From Salinibacter ruber DSM 13855 (lineage in GTDB: Bacteria; Bacteroidota; Rhodothermia; Rhodothermales; Salinibacteraceae): DNA of 64,000 nt. Position 1 is the first letter of the stretch, and every line of letters begins with the position of its first letter. Where the stretch lies: positions 2,852,001 through 2,916,000 of the forward strand of contig NC_007677.1 of assembly GCF_000013045.1 (NCBI RefSeq), in the 5' to 3' direction. Of this stretch, positions 1,366-24,230 are shown piece by piece. A program made the translations under genes and the position numbers. Below the pieces are notes generated by a model, which was not told the origin of the DNA, searched no databases, and saw only the letters and a program-made list of their open reading frames with translations.

Positions 1366-2253
1366 ATGGAGCCTTCCGAAGACGGATCATTTCAGACCCA
1401 CCGCTCTCGCCGCAAGCGCATTGGGATCGCCCTGGCCGGTATTCTCTTCCTGGCCACGATCTTCGGCGTGGTCGTGCTCGTGACGCTTCTGGTAGACGTC
1501 GTCACCTCGGGCACGCCCTGGCTCGACGGGCGGTTCATCACAAGCTTCCCGTCCCGCAACCCGGGCGAGGCCGGCATCAAGTCCGCCCTGTTCGGCTCCC
1601 TCTGGCTAATGGGACTCACCGCACTCATTTCGGTGCCGTTGGGCGTGGCCTCCGCCGTGTACCTTGAGGAGTATGCCCGGGACGGATGGTTCCTGCGCCT
1701 GATTCAAATCAACATCGCCAACCTCGCCGGGGTGCCCTCGGTGGTGTACGGCATCCTGGGGCTTGCCCTCTTTGTGCGTTTCGCGGCGCTGGGACAAAGC
1801 CTCCTGGCCGGGGCCCTCACGCTCAGCCTGCTCATCCTGCCCATCATCATTATCAGCACCCAGGAGGCCCTTCGAAGCATTCCGAGCGGCATCCGCGAGA
1901 ATGCCTACGCCCTCGGGGCCACGCGCTGGCAGGTCATCTGGAGCCACGTCCTGCCGATGGCCGCGCCCGGCATCTTCACCGGCGTCATTCTTGCGCTCAG
2001 TCGGGCCATCGGGGAGACGGCGCCCCTCATCCTGATTGGGGCACTCACCTTCGTTCCGTTTCTTCCCCGAGGGGCCCTGGATCAGTTCACCGCGCTTCCG
2101 ATTCAGATCTTTAACTGGACGGCCCGCCCCCAGTCCGAGTTTGAGGGCCTGGCGGCCGCCGCCATCGTGGTGCTCATGATTCTCCTGTTCACCATGAATC
2201 TGACGGCCATCCTGCTGCGCAACTACTTCGAAGAGCGCCGTGCCGGCTCCTAA
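1366..2253 (+). CDS. pstA: Phosphate ABC transporter permease PstA
   Basis: Second membrane permease of the phosphate importer; it dimerises with PstC and docks PstB. About 295 residues from ATG 1366 (MEPSEDG); an earlier in-frame ATG at 1309 would add 19 residues of low-complexity sequence and is less convincing. Visible landmarks are the first transmembrane segment near residue 20, ASAVYLEEYARD, NLAGVPSVVYGILGL, the EAA loop ALGATRWQVIWSHVLP and AIGETAPLILIGA. The C-terminus ends in a charged tail after the last membrane segment. The gap to pstB is about 40 bp. Confidence 0.94.
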   Translation: MEPSEDGSFQTHRSRRKRIGIALAGILFLATIFGVVVLVTLLVDVVTSGTPWLDGRFITSFPSRNPGEAGIKSALFGSLWLMGLTALISVPLGVASAVYLEEYARDGWFLRLIQINIANLAGVPSVVYGILGLALFVRFAALGQSLLAGALTLSLLILPIIIISTQEALRSIPSGIRENAYALGATRWQVIWSHVLPMAAPGIFTGVILALSRAIGETAPLILIGALTFVPFLPRGALDQFTALPIQIFNWTARPQSEFEGLAAAAIVVLMILLFTMNLTAILLRNYFEERRAGS

Positions 2254-2292
2254 GCCCACCGCCACGCTCCCACCCTGCCCGCACGACCGACT

Positions 2293-3183
2293 GTGCCCCC
2301 TATGCCTACCGACGAATCCACCGACGACGCGCCCACCTCGCCGGTCTCCGCCGACGCGCCCACGCCCAACGGCCGTTCCGACACCCCCGAGCCGCAGGGG
2401 GAGGCGGCCGCGTCCGAGGCCGACGCCCCGTCGGTGCGGCCGAAGCTGCGGATTGAGGACCTGCACTTCTGGTACGGCGAGAATCACGCCCTGCAGGGCA
2501 TCAGCATGGACGTGCAGCCCAATCGGGTGACGGCCCTGATCGGGCCCTCCGGCTGCGGCAAGTCCACGCTGCTGCGGTGCCTCAACCGGATGAACGAGCT
2601 CATCCAGGGCACGACGCTGGAGGGCACCATCCTCGCGGACGGACAGGACATTTACGCGGATGACACCGACCCGGTGATGGTGCGCCGACGCATCGGGATG
2701 GTGTTTCAAAAGCCGAACCCCTTTCCCAAGAGCATCTACAAGAACGTGGCGTGGGGCGCCGAGATCAACGGCTACACCGGAGACCTCGACGCACTCGTGG
2801 AGCGCTCGCTGCGCCAGGCCGCCCTGTGGGACGAGGTCAAAGATCAGCTGCACAGCAGCGCGCTCGACCTGAGTGGGGGGCAGCAACAGCGCCTCTGCAT
2901 CGCCCGGACGCTCGCCGTGCAGCCCGACGTGGTGCTCATGGACGAGCCGGCCAGCGCCCTCGACCCCATCGCGACCTCGAAAATTGAGGAGACGATCACG
3001 GAGCTGAAAAAGGACTACACGATCGTGATCGTTACCCACAACATGCAGCAGGCCTCCCGCATCAGCGACGAGACGGCCTTCCTCTACATGGGCCGCCTCA
3101 TCGAAATGAGCCCGACCGACCAGCTCTTCACCCGCCCCGAGAAGGACCGAACCGAAGCGTACGTCACCGGCCGTTTCGGGTAG
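2293..3183 (+). CDS. pstB: Phosphate ABC transporter ATP-binding protein PstB
   Basis: ATPase subunit of the phosphate importer. Walker [10 protein letters not shown] lies near residue 84, the signature LSGGQQQRL near 194 and Walker [14 protein letters not shown] near 214, followed by the switch histidine in VTHNMQQA. The Q-loop [14 protein letters not shown] is characteristic of PstB. A Pro/Ala/Asp-rich N-terminal extension of about 50 residues precedes the ATPase domain and is longer than in the E. coli protein. The frame is open from GTG 2293 with an ATG at 2302; the latter is probably the real start. phoU follows after 45 bp. Confidence 0.95.
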
Positions 3184-3228
3184 CGTCGGGGCCCTCCTCT
3201 TCCACTGCTGTTCTTCCCTTGTCCGGCC

Positions 3229-3966
3229 ATGCCCAACCGCTCGTCCCTCGACCAAGAACTGGCGTCCCTGCGCGGCCTGATCGCCGACATGGCCAACCGC
3301 GTCGACGAGCAGTTCGCGAACGCGATGAACGCCCTGCTTCAGGGCGACGTGGACCTCGCGGAGGAGGTCGTGGCCGGGGACGACGCCGTCGACGCCCTCG
3401 AGCTGCGCATCGACGAGCAGTGTGAGCGCATCCTGGCCCTCCACTCGCCCGTCGCGGTGGACCTGCGCATGCTCATCATGGCGGTGAAGATCAACACCGA
3501 CTTCGAGCGCATCGGGGACCACTGCCGCAACCTGTCCCGCAATGCGCGCTACCTGGTCGACGCCCCCGGCCTGCTCGCCGACACGCGCCTGCCCAAGATG
3601 GCCGACATGTCCCGCACGATGCTGCGGGAGGCGGAGATGGCGTTCCTGGAGAACGACCGACTGAAGGCCCGCAAGGTGATCGCCCGGGACCTACAGGTGA
3701 ACCGGCTGCACGAGGAGACCTTTGCAACCCTCGTGGAGATGTGCGAGGACGGACACGAGCAGTCCGAAGTGATTGCCCACCTGCTGACCGTCAGCAAGGC
3801 GCTGGAGCGCATCTCCGACCACGCAAAAAACATCGCCCAGAGCATCGTCTTCATGGTGGAGGGCCAGGACCTGCGGCATCGGGGCCTCAAAGACGATCCC
3901 GACGCCCCGGACCTTCCCCCCCTCGACGAGTCGGCGGCGGGCGAATCGTTCGGCGAGGAGGTATAG
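3229..3966 (+). CDS. phoU: Phosphate signalling complex protein PhoU
   Basis: Negative regulator linking PstB activity to phosphate signalling; cytoplasmic, 245 residues. It shows the two PhoU repeats of three helices. Repeat one carries the metal-binding pattern MAVKINTDFERIGDHCRNL near residue 85, and repeat two carries LTVSKALERISDHAKNIAQ near residue 185. An acidic tail of about 30 residues (DPDAPDLPPLDESAAGESFGEEV region) follows and is typical of halophile proteins. It is the last gene of the pst operon; the next gene converges from the minus strand with only 16 bp between the stops. Confidence 0.95.
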   Translation: MPNRSSLDQELASLRGLIADMANRVDEQFANAMNALLQGDVDLAEEVVAGDDAVDALELRIDEQCERILALHSPVAVDLRMLIMAVKINTDFERIGDHCRNLSRNARYLVDAPGLLADTRLPKMADMSRTMLREAEMAFLENDRLKARKVIARDLQVNRLHEETFATLVEMCEDGHEQSEVIAHLLTVSKALERISDHAKNIAQSIVFMVEGQDLRHRGLKDDPDAPDLPPLDESAAGESFGEEV

Positions 3967-3982
3967 CGCCACGTCGGTTTCC

Positions 3983-5656
3983 CTACTGAACAACGGTGAG
4001 GCGCCGGGTCTGCGTCTGCCCTCCGGCCCGCAGCCGCACCACGTACACGCCACTCGGCAGGTCTCTCGTCTCCACCGTCAGCCGTCGGCCCTCTTCCCCC
4101 GGCGGCCGTCCCTCGTACAGGGTCCGTACCCGCTGGCCCAGCACGTCGTACATCGTGACTTCCGCCTTCGTCCCCTCCTGCACCGCAAACGACAGGGTCG
4201 CCCGCTCGGCCGCCGGGTTCGGGGCCGGCGCGCTCAGGTGCAGCGCCCCCTCCATGCCAATCTCCACCTGCACCGTGTCGCTGAGGGTCGTCGAGCGGTC
4301 GAGGTCGACCTGCTCGAGGCGGAAGCGGTGGGTGCCGGGGCCGAGCCGCCGGTCGACCACGAAGCGGTAGGACTGGGCCTCGCCGGTCGTCCCGTCGTCG
4401 ACTGTGCTCGGGACGAAGCCGAGCGCCTCCCAGCCGGCGGCCCGTTCGTACTGGACCCGGAAGCCCGCGTTGTTGGTCTCACTAGCGGTCCGCCACGTCA
4501 GCACCGTCGAGGAGCCGTTGCGCACCGCCGTAAAGCCGGTCAGGGTGACCGGCAGGGCCGTCGAGGCGCGAACCGGAACGAGTTGGGATCCGCTGCTGGA
4601 CTCCCCCACCACGCCCCTGTAGGTAAACGTTCCTGTCGGAATAGACTTACCGATCAGCTCCGTCTGGTTACCGCCCTCAACCCGGTACGCAAGACTCGTT
4701 GTTGCATCCGCAACCGTGTAGGTCGTATTCGCACTGAATGACCCACTCGGGTTTTGAAACGAAAGTCCGTTGACTCGGACCAGCTCGCTTTCGTAGTTCT
4801 CGCCGCTCGACTGAAGCTGACTGAGCGAGACATTCTGGGCGGTCGGAAGCGTGCCTTGCCCTAGGACAACGTAGTTTTTGAGGCCTGAGTCGTCGATCCG
4901 AAGAAGTCCCCCGGGCTCTGACAATGTGCCTCGCACATACAATCGAGTGCCTTGTGTGACATCTCCTCCAATGCCATCCACAGGACCTACCGTGAGTCCA
5001 CTCGGGCTATCGTTGGAGCCACTTTCATCCTGGAACCGCACGTACGACCCGAGAGCCCGCGTAACGGTTCCGGTCACCGTCGCGGTACTGCTGGTTCCTT
5101 CCTGACGACCGTTCTGAACTTCAAGATCACCGACCTTCCCCTGTTCGATGGTCGTAATTTCAAATACCGATGTCGAACCCGCCTCTCTGAACGTACTCAC
5201 AAATGGCTCTCCTATCTCACTGACACTTGGAGTGAGTCTAAAAAAGGTTCCGGGCTTCTGAGCAATGGTTTTTAACTCAACTTCAATCTCCAAAAACTCA
5301 CCATTTCCAGTTACTGGAGGATTATCAGCGTCGTTACTTATCCGAAGAATCCCTGACTGAGGCTGCTCAACATCAAACTGACTCGTCCCAAAGCTAAGCC
5401 CGTCTCCATCTCGAACATCGACTATGTTGAGGACTGCACTATCAAATTTAAACTCCATGTTCGAGTAGTTATCCACATTTTTGCCCGCAAGGTCTGCCTG
5501 GATACTCAAGGTGGCAGTCTCACCTGGCGCTAGGTCCTTCTCAGGAATAGTCACAGAAATGCCCGACTGTGCATGTGTCGGTACAGGCATCCCTCCAACA
5601 AAAACCAGAACGAGAAGCAGACTCAATGCCGCGTCTACGTGTCGGTCGCTCATCAT
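3983..5656 (-). CDS. Secreted protein with cohesin-like domain and type IX-style sorting tail
   Basis: Exported protein of about 557 residues from ATG 5656 (an upstream TTG at 5698 is possible). A signal peptide (hydrophobic LSLLLVLVFVGG, ending THAQ) is followed by a cohesin-like beta domain (roughly residues 30-165) and an OB/lamin-tail-like beta region with the pattern VRFQDESGSNDSPSG. Next come an Fn3-like segment (LTWRTASETNNAGFRV) and a C-terminal sorting domain (APNPAAERATLSF, VYDxLGQ-type motif YDVLGQRVRTL, LPSGVYVVRL). The tail predicts type IX secretion or surface attachment. No enzymatic motif is visible. The N-terminal half has clearly lower GC than its surroundings, which may mark a domain acquired by recombination. 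Confidence 0.75.
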   Translation of the reverse strand: MMSDRHVDAALSLLLVLVFVGGMPVPTHAQSGISVTIPEKDLAPGETATLSIQADLAGKNVDNYSNMEFKFDSAVLNIVDVRDGDGLSFGTSQFDVEQPQSGILRISNDADNPPVTGNGEFLEIEVELKTIAQKPGTFFRLTPSVSEIGEPFVSTFREAGSTSVFEITTIEQGKVGDLEVQNGRQEGTSSTATVTGTVTRALGSYVRFQDESGSNDSPSGLTVGPVDGIGGDVTQGTRLYVRGTLSEPGGLLRIDDSGLKNYVVLGQGTLPTAQNVSLSQLQSSGENYESELVRVNGLSFQNPSGSFSANTTYTVADATTSLAYRVEGGNQTELIGKSIPTGTFTYRGVVGESSSGSQLVPVRASTALPVTLTGFTAVRNGSSTVLTWRTASETNNAGFRVQYERAAGWEALGFVPSTVDDGTTGEAQSYRFVVDRRLGPGTHRFRLEQVDLDRSTTLSDTVQVEIGMEGALHLSAPAPNPAAERATLSFAVQEGTKAEVTMYDVLGQRVRTLYEGRPPGEEGRRLTVETRDLPSGVYVVRLRAGGQTQTRRLTVVQ

Positions 5657-20539: not shown

Positions 20540-21763
20540 CTACTCCGCGCTGAGGAGCCACAGCGCCGCGAGCCCCACCAGGAAGGCCACGCCCCCGGCC
20601 GCGTAGAACACCGCCTCGATGCCGCCCAGCGCGAGCGCCAGGCCCATCAGGAGCGGCCCCCCGGCCTGCCCAAGGCGCAGGATCGTGCCGTTGAGGGACA
20701 GAATCACACCGCGGGAGGCCTCCGACGACAGCTCGGTCAGCCGGGTCTGCAGGGCCGGCTGGTTGAGGCCCTGTGCCACGCCGTAGAACAGCGACGCCAT
20801 CCCGACGCCCCACACGCCGGGCGCCAGCGGCATGAGGACAAGCGCCACCCCGTCGATCACGATGGATCCCTGGATGAGGCGACGGGGCGGGATCCAGGTC
20901 GCCAGGCGTCCAATCTGGGTCGCCACCAGGGCGCTCGACACCGACGCCGCGGCCAGCACCACCCCCGACACGACGGACGAGGCGCCGAAGCGGGTCTCGA
21001 CGAGCTCCGGCACGTACGTGAGGAAGGCGCCGAAGATCAGGACAAAGATGCCGAGGTTGACGGCGAGCAGGCCGAAGACCCGTCGATCCCGCAGGCGCGC
21101 CCCCACCGTCCGGAGGTAGCCCCGAAAGCCCTCCGCACTCGACCGACCGTCGACCGCCGGGGCCTCCAGCTTCCACGCCACCGCCGTCCCCACTGGAAGG
21201 GCGAGAAGCGGGAGCGCGAACGGCACGTACCACGCGATGGCCGCCAGCATTCCGCCCACGGCCGGGAAGGCCGCCGTCCCCACGTTGAGGGCCGTGGCGT
21301 TGTAGCCGACCACCGCGGCCCGCGTCGCGCCGTCGTACCGGTCGCCAATGATCGTAATGGCGAGCCCGACCAGCGGCGCCGCGGCGAACCCCTGCACGGC
21401 CCGCAGGACGAGCAAGACGGGAAACGACCGGGCCAGGGCGCACGCCCCGCCGGCGATCCCAAACACGAACAGCGTGGGCACCAGCACCCGCTTCCGTCCC
21501 AGGCGGTCGGCGCCGATGCCCGCGAGGGGGGCACTCAGGAGGCCCGGGAGCGAATAGACCGTTACGACCCAGCCCACCTGGACCCGCGAAATGCCGAGCA
21601 CGTCGACGACCTGCGGAAAGGCGGGCGACACCCCGGACACATTGCCGACTCCGACCAGCGTGACGGCAAAGAGCAGCCAAACGTCGAGTTCAGCGAGGGG
21701 TGAAGAGTCCGACGACGCGCTCGGGGAACGAGCGGAGCCCTCGGCGTCGTCGGCAGGTGCCAT
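20540..21763 (-). CDS. Major facilitator superfamily transporter
   Basis: Inner-membrane transporter of 407 residues with about 12 hydrophobic segments. The cytoplasmic loop motif between helices 2 and 3 is present as GIGADRLGRKRVLVP (about residue 75), and the helix-4 region reads RAVQGFAAAPLVGLAI. It resembles drug-efflux-type MFS proteins; the substrate is not evident. The ATG at 21761-21763 is only 12 nt from the predicted 3' splice site of the upstream group II intron, so the intron or its splicing would affect the leader of this gene. Confidence 0.87.
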   Translation of the reverse strand: MAPADDAEGSARSPSASSDSSPLAELDVWLLFAVTLVGVGNVSGVSPAFPQVVDVLGISRVQVGWVVTVYSLPGLLSAPLAGIGADRLGRKRVLVPTLFVFGIAGGACALARSFPVLLVLRAVQGFAAAPLVGLAITIIGDRYDGATRAAVVGYNATALNVGTAAFPAVGGMLAAIAWYVPFALPLLALPVGTAVAWKLEAPAVDGRSSAEGFRGYLRTVGARLRDRRVFGLLAVNLGIFVLIFGAFLTYVPELVETRFGASSVVSGVVLAAASVSSALVATQIGRLATWIPPRRLIQGSIVIDGVALVLMPLAPGVWGVGMASLFYGVAQGLNQPALQTRLTELSSEASRGVILSLNGTILRLGQAGGPLLMGLALALGGIEAVFYAAGGVAFLVGLAALWLLSAE

Positions 21764-21775
21764 AAGCGATACGAG

Positions 21776-22769
21776 GTGAAAGTAAGAGGTTGGTGCGTTT
21801 AATCTCTTCAGATACCTTAAAGGCCGTCTCCAACCTCTTCTTCCCGAACCGGGCGTACACCTTTCGGCGTACCTCGGCTCTCTACGAAGTCTCTATTGAG
21901 GCACATCGGCCTCACGTTTCCGCAATGGCCTACCACATTCCCATTCAGGAACGCTTACTTCAGCCCCTTCCCATCTGGGGCAGGCTTCCAATTTCGGGGT
22001 GCAAGAATCCCCTACCAATTCCCGGATACTTATCCGGTCCCTCCTGCCGTGACTTCCAATCACTGTGTCTGGGACTTCGTCGGTCATCTTCTGTACTTTG
22101 TATTTGAGTCTTCGTTATCCATCTTCGCCAGTGTCAGCCATTTCGGGCTGCTCCAAGGCTACTACACAGGCTCCGCCGACACCCAGCAGGCATCGGTAGA
22201 TCTAGGTACCCTATCATCCTACTGGGTGTATCCTGGATTTCGCAGGTTCATTCACATTCGCCAAACGTAGGTCCCGCCTATTCCTTGTCCCTTGTACCCG
22301 GCAGAACAACCGGGCTATCGCGATTAGAGCCTTAAAGCGTGGTTCAGGCTCTATGTCTCCGTCTCACTGGAAAACTATCTGTTGGGTAAAACAGGAACCC
22401 TTCAGTGATCGCGCAGACCTCTTTTGGCTTCCCGGCAGGAGACATGTAGAGTTTCTGCATGATAACAGTGGCAATTTGCCTCTCACGGGACTTAACTCCG
22501 CCAAAAGATTCAATCTCTGAAGTAGCTTCAGTCCGGGGTGCCTTTTCCCGATGGAACTGAGGCGGTTCTTTGAAAATGACCTTGTTTGGCCATCGCCAAG
22601 GGGAGCACCTTAGGGCTTGCTACTAGCCCCGTCTCCCCATTCCTGGGCCGGATTCTCCACGGCACGTCCTATTACATGCCGCTTAGGCCCGTAGGGCGGT
22701 CGTGCTGCTCACGTCAGCACGCGTTCAATGTGAAAAGAACAATGGATGAGCCTGCGATTTCCAGCTCAC
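21776..22769 (-). ncRNA. Group II intron without a reverse-transcriptase gene (5' end approximate)
   Basis: Self-splicing ribozyme read on the minus strand. Domain V is clear at 21846-21880: GAGCCG and CGGTTC close the base, GTACGCC pairs with GGTGTAC under a GAAA tetraloop, with the expected 2-nt bulge. Domain VI follows: AAGAGGTTGG pairs with CCAACCTCTT, then an unpaired A at 21783 and CTTTCAC, placing the branch A 7 nt from an intron end in AC (21776). About 900 nt of structured, lower-GC sequence upstream fits domains I-III. The 5' end is unfixed: GTGAG at 22769 and GTGCT at 22720 are both possible. No intron-encoded protein is visible; one 64-codon frame (22087-21893) lies in the domain IV position. 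It sits between the GH13 and MFS genes. Confidence 0.8.
21846..21880 (-). ncRNA. Group II intron domain V
   Basis: A 35-nt hairpin with the catalytic AGC triad, GAAA loop and two-base bulge on the 3' strand. One A (position 7 of the hairpin) appears bulged or mispaired in the lower stem, a small departure from the 34-nt consensus. Confidence 0.8.
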
Positions 22770-22838
22770 TGAGACGTAAGCAAGACCTCGCGAGTCCGGG
22801 CGCGGGCGCCCTGCGGTGTCGACCTTCCGATTTGTCGG

Positions 22839-24230
22839 TCATTCCGCAGTCGCCCGCCGGAGAACGCGGTAGTCGTAGCCCTCTAGGGTCATCGTCGCGC
22901 CCTCCACAGACGCCCCCGTCGAGGCATCGGTGAGGGGCGCGTCGGCGTAGCCGTCCGGAAGGGATACCTCGCGCGAGGCGTCGCGGACGTTCACCGCAAC
23001 GAGCAGGCTGTCCGTGTCGGTCGCCCGCTCGTACACCAGCACGTCCTCGGCATCCGGGGTGTGCACCGTCAGGGCCCCGGTCCGCAGGGCCGGGCTGTCG
23101 CCGTACAGCCGGAGGTAATCACGGTAGAAGCGTCGGACATCGGGCGTCTGCGACCAGTCGTACGGCGTGCGGGCAAAGAAGGACACCGAATCGGTCACGC
23201 CCAGCTCCTGGCCGTTGTAGACCAGCGGCGCTCCGGGCATGCTCGTCGCAAGCACGAACGCCGCCGTCGAGCCCTCCAGGCCGTCGAAGAGGGCGGGCGG
23301 AGGGGCGTCCCACATCGTCTCGTCGTGGTTCGTGGTGAAGCGTAGGCGCCGGGCCGCCTCCGGCAGATTGGCAAGGGTGGTGTCAACCTGCGTGGCGAGG
23401 GTGCGGACGGGGGCGTCCTCCTCCCACACCCGCTTCAGCGCGCCGTAAAACGGCCAGGCGTACGTCTGGTCGAAGCCTACTTCATGCATTTCTGGCCTCG
23501 CCGCCTCCGCCAGCATCAGCACCTCCTTGCGGGCCTCCACCGAGTCAATCGCGTTCTCCCAGAAGTCGAGCGGCACCGCGTGGGCCACGTCGGCCCGGTA
23601 GCCGTCAATGTTAAACTCGCGAACCCAGTACTGCATGACGTCGATCATCTCCTGCCGCGTCCGCGGATTCTCAAAGTCGAGCTCCACCACGTCCGTCCAG
23701 TTGGTCGTGTCGCCGTTCAGGACAGGCACCGTAAAGCCATTGATAGGCCCGTCGCTGTACATGTCCGGGTGCTCGTCCAGCCACGGGTGGTCCCAGGCCG
23801 TGTGATTGGCCACCAGGTCGATGATGATGTGCATATCCCGGGCGTGCACCGAATCCACGAGCGCCCGGAAGTCTTCTTTCGTTCCGTAGTCCGGATTCAC
23901 GTCGTAGTAGTCCCGAATCGAGTACGGGGACCCGAGCGCCCCGATGTCGCTCTTGCGCCGCTTTTCGCCGATCGGGTGGATGGGCATGAGCCAGAGCGTG
24001 TTGACGCCCATCGCCTGAATCTCGTCGAGCCGCCCGATGAGTCCCTGGAAGGTGCCCTCCGCGGAGGCGTCCGGGACGAACACCTCGTAGACGGTGGCGT
24101 CCTGCACCCAGGCCGGCTCGCCCACCCCGTCAATGGAGGGGGAGGCGGACTCGTTCGACGGGCTCGCGCATCCGACGAGGCCGATCGCGAGTGCGGATGC
24201 GAGCGCGAGAAGAACCGGGCGGTGGGGCAT
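22839..24230 (-). CDS. GH13 alpha-amylase-family lipoprotein
   Basis: Glycoside hydrolase of 463 residues from ATG 24230, with a lipoprotein signal (ALAIGLVGC lipobox) that would anchor it in the envelope. The four conserved GH13 regions are present: DLVANH (about 137), GYRADVAHAVP with the nucleophile Asp (about 215), LAEAARPE with the acid/base Glu (about 244) and FTTNHDE (about 305). A C-terminal beta domain ends VEGATMTLEGYDYRVLRR. It probably acts on short maltodextrins or related alpha-glucans. An SDR gene lies upstream and a group II intron directly downstream. Confidence 0.9.
   Translation of the reverse strand: MPHRPVLLALASALAIGLVGCASPSNESASPSIDGVGEPAWVQDATVYEVFVPDASAEGTFQGLIGRLDEIQAMGVNTLWLMPIHPIGEKRRKSDIGALGSPYSIRDYYDVNPDYGTKEDFRALVDSVHARDMHIIIDLVANHTAWDHPWLDEHPDMYSDGPINGFTVPVLNGDTTNWTDVVELDFENPRTRQEMIDVMQYWVREFNIDGYRADVAHAVPLDFWENAIDSVEARKEVLMLAEAARPEMHEVGFDQTYAWPFYGALKRVWEEDAPVRTLATQVDTTLANLPEAARRLRFTTNHDETMWDAPPPALFDGLEGSTAAFVLATSMPGAPLVYNGQELGVTDSVSFFARTPYDWSQTPDVRRFYRDYLRLYGDSPALRTGALTVHTPDAEDVLVYERATDTDSLLVAVNVRDASREVSLPDGYADAPLTDASTGASVEGATMTLEGYDYRVLRRATAE

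Follow-up and report, generated by a model that had tools for sequence, protein, structure and literature searches.

Target site choice by group II introns depends on the EBS1–IBS1 and EBS2–IBS2 pairings and on one pairing with the 3' exon (PMC4424553), the EBS1 loop being typically 9–10 nt long (PMC3919590). Introns without an intron-encoded protein (IEP) constitute 281 of the 2,381 introns identified in 1,790 representative bacterial genomes (PMC8919778, whose main text does not name Salinibacter), and a missing ORF is therefore nothing rare in itself. Two described systems are the closest to the one considered here. The TeI3 introns of Thermosynechococcus elongatus resemble it in having ORF-less dispersed copies, diverged EBS, a twintron, and likely mobilization in trans (PMC2882425), while C.te.I1 of Clostridium tetani resembles it as an ORF-less bacterial group II intron from a genome without a related IEP (PMC3919590), the sole known exception of that kind according to a 2015 review (PMC4424553).

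The intron studied in this work, I1, is probably a non-autonomous group II intron that is mobilized in trans and can use either of two EBS1 guides, as suggested by its sequence and that of its relatives; what is unusual is the lack of a reverse transcriptase (RT) combined with the presence of two loops. Judging by titles and the beginnings of abstracts among the matches listed, with subscription papers and supplements outside the scope, no intron with two EBS1 loops was found in the literature, the one match for an alternative EBS1 dealing with RmInt1, whose 3' exon carries an alternative IBS1 (PMC4238363). Publications on group II introns of Salinibacter, judged in the same way, yielded nothing on the I1 family.

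Intron I1 and its locus

The analyzed window is a stretch of 64,000 nt of the Salinibacter ruber DSM 13855 genome, in which I1 is inserted in the sense orientation between two genes:

22839..24227, minus strand: alpha-amylase family (GH13) gene, upstream, its stop codon separated from the intron by 69 nt (listed as a frame from 24440, scanned from 24227)
21776..22769, minus strand: ORF-less group II intron I1, 994 nt, GUGAG...UUUCAC, identified by an RF00029 match, empty sites in related genomes G010, G003, and G006, and four more copies in the host
21846..21880, minus strand: domain V, the catalytic hairpin, from the RF00029 alignment, with most pairs kept in five sequences, some with two-sided changes
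21776..21842, minus strand: domain VI and the 3' splice site, with A at 21783 unpaired, 7 nt from the end, from the RF00029 alignment and RNAalifold
20540..21763, minus strand: MFS transporter gene, downstream (MFS_1, E 1.4e-54), with the ATG 12 nt past the splice site

An earlier note had described this interval as an ORF-less group II intron that follows the GH13 stop and ends 12 nt ahead of the MFS start codon. This description is confirmed: the RF00029 match identifies the intron, empty sites fix its ends, no RT frame is present, and both distances hold (69 nt on the 5' side, 12 nt from the 3' splice site). The covariance-model search proposed there placed RF00029 at 21776–21882 (minus strand) with 48.6 bits against the gathering score of 40 (E 1.7e-6 in the 64-kb window); the match covers the whole model (1–77 of 77) and the final 107 nt of the intron. 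RF00029 was also the sole Rfam family in a 1.3-kb search of the I1 region with E up to 1, none of the Rfam D1–D4 models being found there at E ≤ 1.

The RF00029 alignment sets domain V at 21880..21846, exactly as had been read from the letters, and its AGC triad was identified by eye. The bulged A reported seven bases from the AC end is A 21783 (...A CUUUCAC), followed by 7 nt and unpaired in the RNAalifold consensus of five copies (column 1023). Domains V and VI bear no signs of decay, and the claim of an intact catalytic end holds. Domains I–IV are folded in the five-copy consensus and are homologous to those of RT-bearing introns; of the 297 pairs predicted in the consensus, 65 have changes on both sides in one sequence or more. 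The fold energy of the I1 RNA, folded without the last base, has z = –7.6 against 20 dinucleotide shuffles.

Both ends, 21776 and 22769, are exact by three routes, that is, the empty site in G010, a nested copy, and a relative on plasmid pSR84. The GH13–MFS junction lacks the intron in three related genomes. In G010, the joined flanks align gaplessly across the junction between CGTCTCA and CTCGTATCGC (600 of 600 positions, 95%), in G003 the same 600 of 600 positions align at 88%, and in G006 the identity is 81% with small gaps within the flanks; no base is duplicated or lost at the insertion point in G010 and G003. G005 was not counted as an empty site, as the flanks of I1 match at 71% but the junction is unaligned. 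The nested copy is flanked by GATTGA and ATCTTT of its host intron and has the same GTGAG...TTTCAC ends as I1. The I1 termini, GUGAG...AC, deviate at the 5' side from the usual GUGYG...AY. The RT-bearing pSR84 relative (K2) also starts with GUGAG, and excision at these ends restores the V-T-D-G-D-T-Y frame of a thermonuclease.

If GH13 and the MFS gene are co-transcribed, splicing would remove I1 from the MFS leader and so reshape it, as the earlier note proposed. One sigma-70-like match is found within I1, at about intron positions 284–311 (mean of 0.4 in shuffles), and MFS transcription might start there, leaving out the first third of the intron. Moreover, the intron contains at 22262–22269 a match to TANNTTTG, which we take to be the Bacteroidota-type –7 element. 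Given the two matches, the MFS gene may be transcribed from within the intron. In the window as a whole, TANNTTTG occurs 10 times compared to 3.1 expected, a count reached in none of 100 shuffles, and this excess may reflect promoters of the Bacteroidota type.

Copies of the intron and reverse transcriptases

The alignment search of the host genome (contigs of 3,551,823 and 35,505 bases) produced six aligned pieces corresponding to five introns: I1, I2 (161159), I3 (255209), and a nested pair (309251–311268) with I4in inside I4out. RF00029 yields five domain V/VI matches in this genome, of which three, including I1, exceed the cut-off, and two are just below it (38.8 and 38.2 bits vs. 40). The search of the same genome for copies with an intron-encoded protein, suggested in the earlier note, yielded four further copies, none of them with a detectable RT stretch. 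I2 ends 6 nt ahead of an ATG; the short frame after it has no Pfam match, and a gene there is unproven. No Pfam match was found for short neighbor protein pieces (IS-like, TnpB-like) either. In I3 (C1:255209–256206 of the host genome) one domain V pair is lost (column 926/957, G-U to G-A), and this copy may be catalytically weak.

The DNA search in 60 genomes, the host included, gave matches in three, these being the host itself, G010, and Salinivenus iranica (G012). G010 holds three copies: J1, J2 at the flanks of I4out, and J3 with the 3' end lost. J1 is 98.6% identical to I1 (14 differences in 994 positions, 13 of them transitions) and occupies a different site, the I1 site of the same genome being empty. 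J2 is 97.0% identical to I4out and has the same flanks, but lacks the inner intron I4in. The J1 site, either empty or filled, was not found with joined flanks in 14 genomes (G010 outside the set), where only pieces of approximately 40–50 bases were matched; hence, there is no empty-site proof for J1. Plasmids of S. ruber contribute K1 (pSR76, ORF-less), K2 (pSR84, RT-bearing), and K3 (pSR118, cut after about 178 nt). In genome G059 of the same order, we observe 13 RF00029 matches at E ≤ 0.001 on several contigs, some of them below the cut-off. A 24-base domain I pattern matched 13 viral contigs, considered as chance matches, since all share one coding-like context and are otherwise unlike introns; a longer second domain I pattern was found in no viral contigs and in two genome contigs, and the phage collection contained no match.

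As had been claimed in the earlier note, the intron lacks an RT, and the absence extends to the genome: no matches to PF00078 (RVT_1) at E ≤ 0.01 and none to TIGR04416 at E ≤ 1 were found in the host, while among 14 control genomes 3 matched PF00078 and 5 matched TIGR04416. RVT_1 matches are present in 12 of the 60 genomes, and in the ORF-less copies no trace of an RT came out below E 0.35. With the host lacking a detectable group II RT, a helper protein would have to come from outside.

RT-bearing introns of the same family are found in S. iranica, Salinibacter altiplanensis (G006), and on pSR84, with aligned domain I pieces, and for S. iranica also domain V pieces, mostly 67–84% identical. 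These introns carry an RT/maturase frame, unlike the I1-family copies of the host. The S. iranica RT (545 aa) has RVT_1, GIIM, and HNH domains and scores 380 bits with TIGR04416, and its closest relatives by sequence among solved structures are group II RTs, including LtrA. The S. altiplanensis RT has RVT_1 and GIIM and scores 351 bits. The RT frame of K2 (plasmid pSR84 of S. ruber M8, L087 3227 to L089 1178) is broken by ISSru2. The S. iranica intron (L041, about 4440..1880) directly follows a frame ending with DDELPF-stop (ssb-like, by eye) and may start with CTGAG, in which case it would complete the upstream gene with the codons TTC TGA.

One RT of G010 (L040 4412–5818, 468 aa) was rejected as a group II maturase, having a TIGR04416 score of 132 vs. 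300 bits and no GIIM match. TIGR04416 is its best model and Drt3a the next one, both below the cut-offs, and it is possibly a defense RT. As it fails both the curated cut-off and GIIM, G010 is also without a recognized group II RT.

Predicted exon recognition by EBS2 and two EBS1-type hairpins

The elements of I1 and its exons relevant for site choice are as follows:

22539..22543, minus strand: EBS2 loop (AGGCA), pairing with exon positions –13..–9 (TGCTT), 5/5 with one G-U, in a fixed register
22388..22396, minus strand: loop of hairpin A, EBS1-type (delta C and guide TGTTTT), an RNAalifold hairpin, 3/7 pairs at the own site and 7/7 at the J1 site in G010
22361..22369, minus strand: loop of hairpin B, the EBS1 fitting the I1 site (delta G and guide TGAGAC), an RNAalifold hairpin, 7/7 Watson–Crick pairs with exon –6..+1
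22770..22775, minus strand: IBS1 (GTCTCA) in the 5' exon, pairing at the fixed register
22778..22782, minus strand: IBS2 (TGCTT) in the 5' exon, pairing at the fixed register
21775, minus strand: first base of the 3' exon (C), pairing with delta G

RNAalifold, applied to five copies with no exon input, predicts two adjacent hairpins with loops of 9 columns each (380–388 and 408–416). Refolding of the region in seven sequences yields both stems again, with two-sided changes in each. In the loop register used, delta is base 3 and the guide, bases 4–9. EBS2 is the third loop, GGGAAA[5 nt]CC, pairing with exon –13..–9. At its own site I1 forms 12 of 12 pairs, counting EBS1–IBS1, EBS2–IBS2, and exon position +1.

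Seven introns (I1, I2, I3, I4in, I4out, J1, and K2) were scored against each other's sites in a 7 × 7 matrix; the copies outside it are J2 and K1 (both at the I4out site or a paralogous one), J3 (for its lost 3' end), K3 (truncated), and the S. iranica and S. altiplanensis introns (no clean loops). Six of the seven scored introns have 7/7 delta and EBS1 pairs at their own sites, and K2 has 6/7. I1, I2 (with one G-U), and I4in fit via hairpin B with 7/7 pairs, and K2 with 6/7, while I3, I4out, and J1 fit via hairpin A with 7/7 pairs (one G-U in I3 and in J1). In I3 both loops nearly fit, A with 7/7 and B with 6/7 pairs. The fraction of random 7-mers pairing as well is 6e-5 to 7e-4, and 2.5e-3 for K2, values to be read with the loops and register having been fixed only after the pairings had been looked at and with few sites available. 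EBS2 forms 5/5 pairs in I1, I2, I3, I4in, J1, and J3, and 4/5 in I4out/J2/K1 and K2.

In all seven matrix introns, exon position +1 is paired with the base immediately 5' of EBS1. This delta-type pairing agrees with a trait of subgroup IIA, the subgroup itself being not claimed. Outside the matrix, hairpin B of J3 forms 6/6 pairs, with no 3' exon available for delta; by eye, the S. iranica intron fits hairpin A only if it starts with CTGAG, and no convincing EBS1 is seen in S. altiplanensis.

The comparison of I1 and J1 is central to the two-guide proposal: their A and B loops are identical, but the I1 site fits B and the J1 site fits A. When the sites are swapped, each intron forms 12/12 pairs at the site of the other, I1 via A and J1 via B; all other foreign sites in the matrix reach at most 8/12. 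The EBS2 loops of these two introns differ by one base, with the pairing kept. The guide-B target TGCYTNNGTCTCAC is found in G010 once, at the empty I1 site, with no matches of the reversed control, while the guide-A target pattern and its reversed control have three matches each in two genomes. Judged by base pairing only, both hairpins would serve as EBS1 in one RNA.

Two full 9-nt loops are present only in I1/J1, I2, and I3. Loop B has 7 nt in I4out, J2, and K1, loop A differs in size in I4in and J3, and none is recognized in K2. For loop A of I2 there is no matching known site. The possibility that the unused loop acts as EBS2 was rejected, as its pairing with exon –20..–7 is not above random in any of the seven introns.

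The nested pair (C1:309251–311268 of the host genome, L036) is a case of one family member entering another. The I4in target is a conserved stretch of domain I, which among the seven matrix introns only I4in fits with 12/12 pairs. The stretch is intact (12/12) in I1, I2, I3, I4out, and J1, whereas in I4in itself 3 of 12 positions are changed; J2 and J3 each miss one pair, and K1 and K2 were left out of this scoring. Hence, by pairing, I4in targets its relatives and not itself.

Probable mobility of the family and comparison with known systems

The family is likely to have moved recently, with the 98.6% identical J1 at another site, the I1 site empty in G010, and I4in absent from J2. Somewhat more tentatively, we favor a model in which one RNA with two interchangeable EBS1 hairpins addresses two unrelated sites via a shared EBS2, and the family moves between strains without a resident RT, borrowing a plasmid RT. 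Transcription would proceed from the GH13 side, and I1 would then splice from the MFS mRNA leader, either alone or with the help of a maturase. Spread would occur by reverse splicing while a related RT/maturase, e.g., a plasmid-borne one, shares the cell, the intron remaining behind once the helper protein is lost. The target would be chosen by EBS2 (exon –13..–9) together with hairpin A or B, each providing a 6-nt guide for exon –6..–1 and, for exon +1, the delta base; I1 would have entered by guide B, and its near-twin J1 in G010, by guide A.

The earlier note had offered a protein in trans or a relic as alternatives. The second one, a dead relic that neither splices nor moves and is plain untranslated leader DNA, seems unlikely: the genome has no RT, the 5' end is GUGAG rather than GUGYG, and in the sister copy I3 one pair of domain V is gone, but I1 itself retains intact domains V and VI and complete exon pairings (12/12), the fold is conserved with two-sided changes, and a nearly identical copy is present elsewhere. 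Under the first alternative, the protein would have to be supplied from outside the genome.

It is also rather improbable that hairpin B is the only, ordinary EBS1, and that retrotransposition or recombination brought the copies assigned to A to sites of poor match, their A pairings being due to chance. Insertions at poorly matched sites have been reported for T. elongatus introns (PMC2882425), and hairpin B does fit I1, I2, I4in, K2, and J3. However, with the register fixed, hairpin A forms 7/7 pairs at the three distinct sites of I3, I4out, and J1, as only 7e-5 to 5e-4 of random 7-mers do, EBS2 also fits at these sites, and loop B of I4out and its relatives is too short for a 6-nt guide plus delta in register. 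A domesticated leader element regulating the MFS gene via splicing or folding is very improbable: I1 and I2 end 12 and 6 nt before an ATG (the gene after I2 being unproven), but three relatives with conserved flanks lack an intron at the I1 position, meaning that I1 is not a conserved regulatory element, and the places occupied by other copies are an intron (I4in), a thermonuclease gene (K2), and further plasmid sites (K1, K3).

If both EBS1 loops of this intron work, they would show how a new target specificity arises without loss of the old one. I1 and J1 constitute a ready test pair, being 14 bases apart, sharing both loops, and having opposite predicted loop use. Moreover, several recently mobile ORF-less copies without an IEP would extend a pattern for which a single bacterial exception has been named (PMC4424553).

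Compared to TeI3, the differences are in the helper and in exon recognition. T. elongatus encodes driver RTs, and its introns are of the IIB1 type with EBS1, EBS2, and EBS3 (PMC2882425), while for the I1 family no RT is detected, exon position +1 is paired in the delta mode, and two EBS1-type hairpins are present. In C.te.I1, in turn, the EBS1 loop is enlarged, EBS2 is lacking, the 5' splice site is shifted, and alternative 3' ends occur (PMC3919590), whereas the I1 family has five copies in the host, EBS2 with 5/5 pairs, normal junctions with GUGAG starting exactly at the empty-site junction, and probable recent movement.
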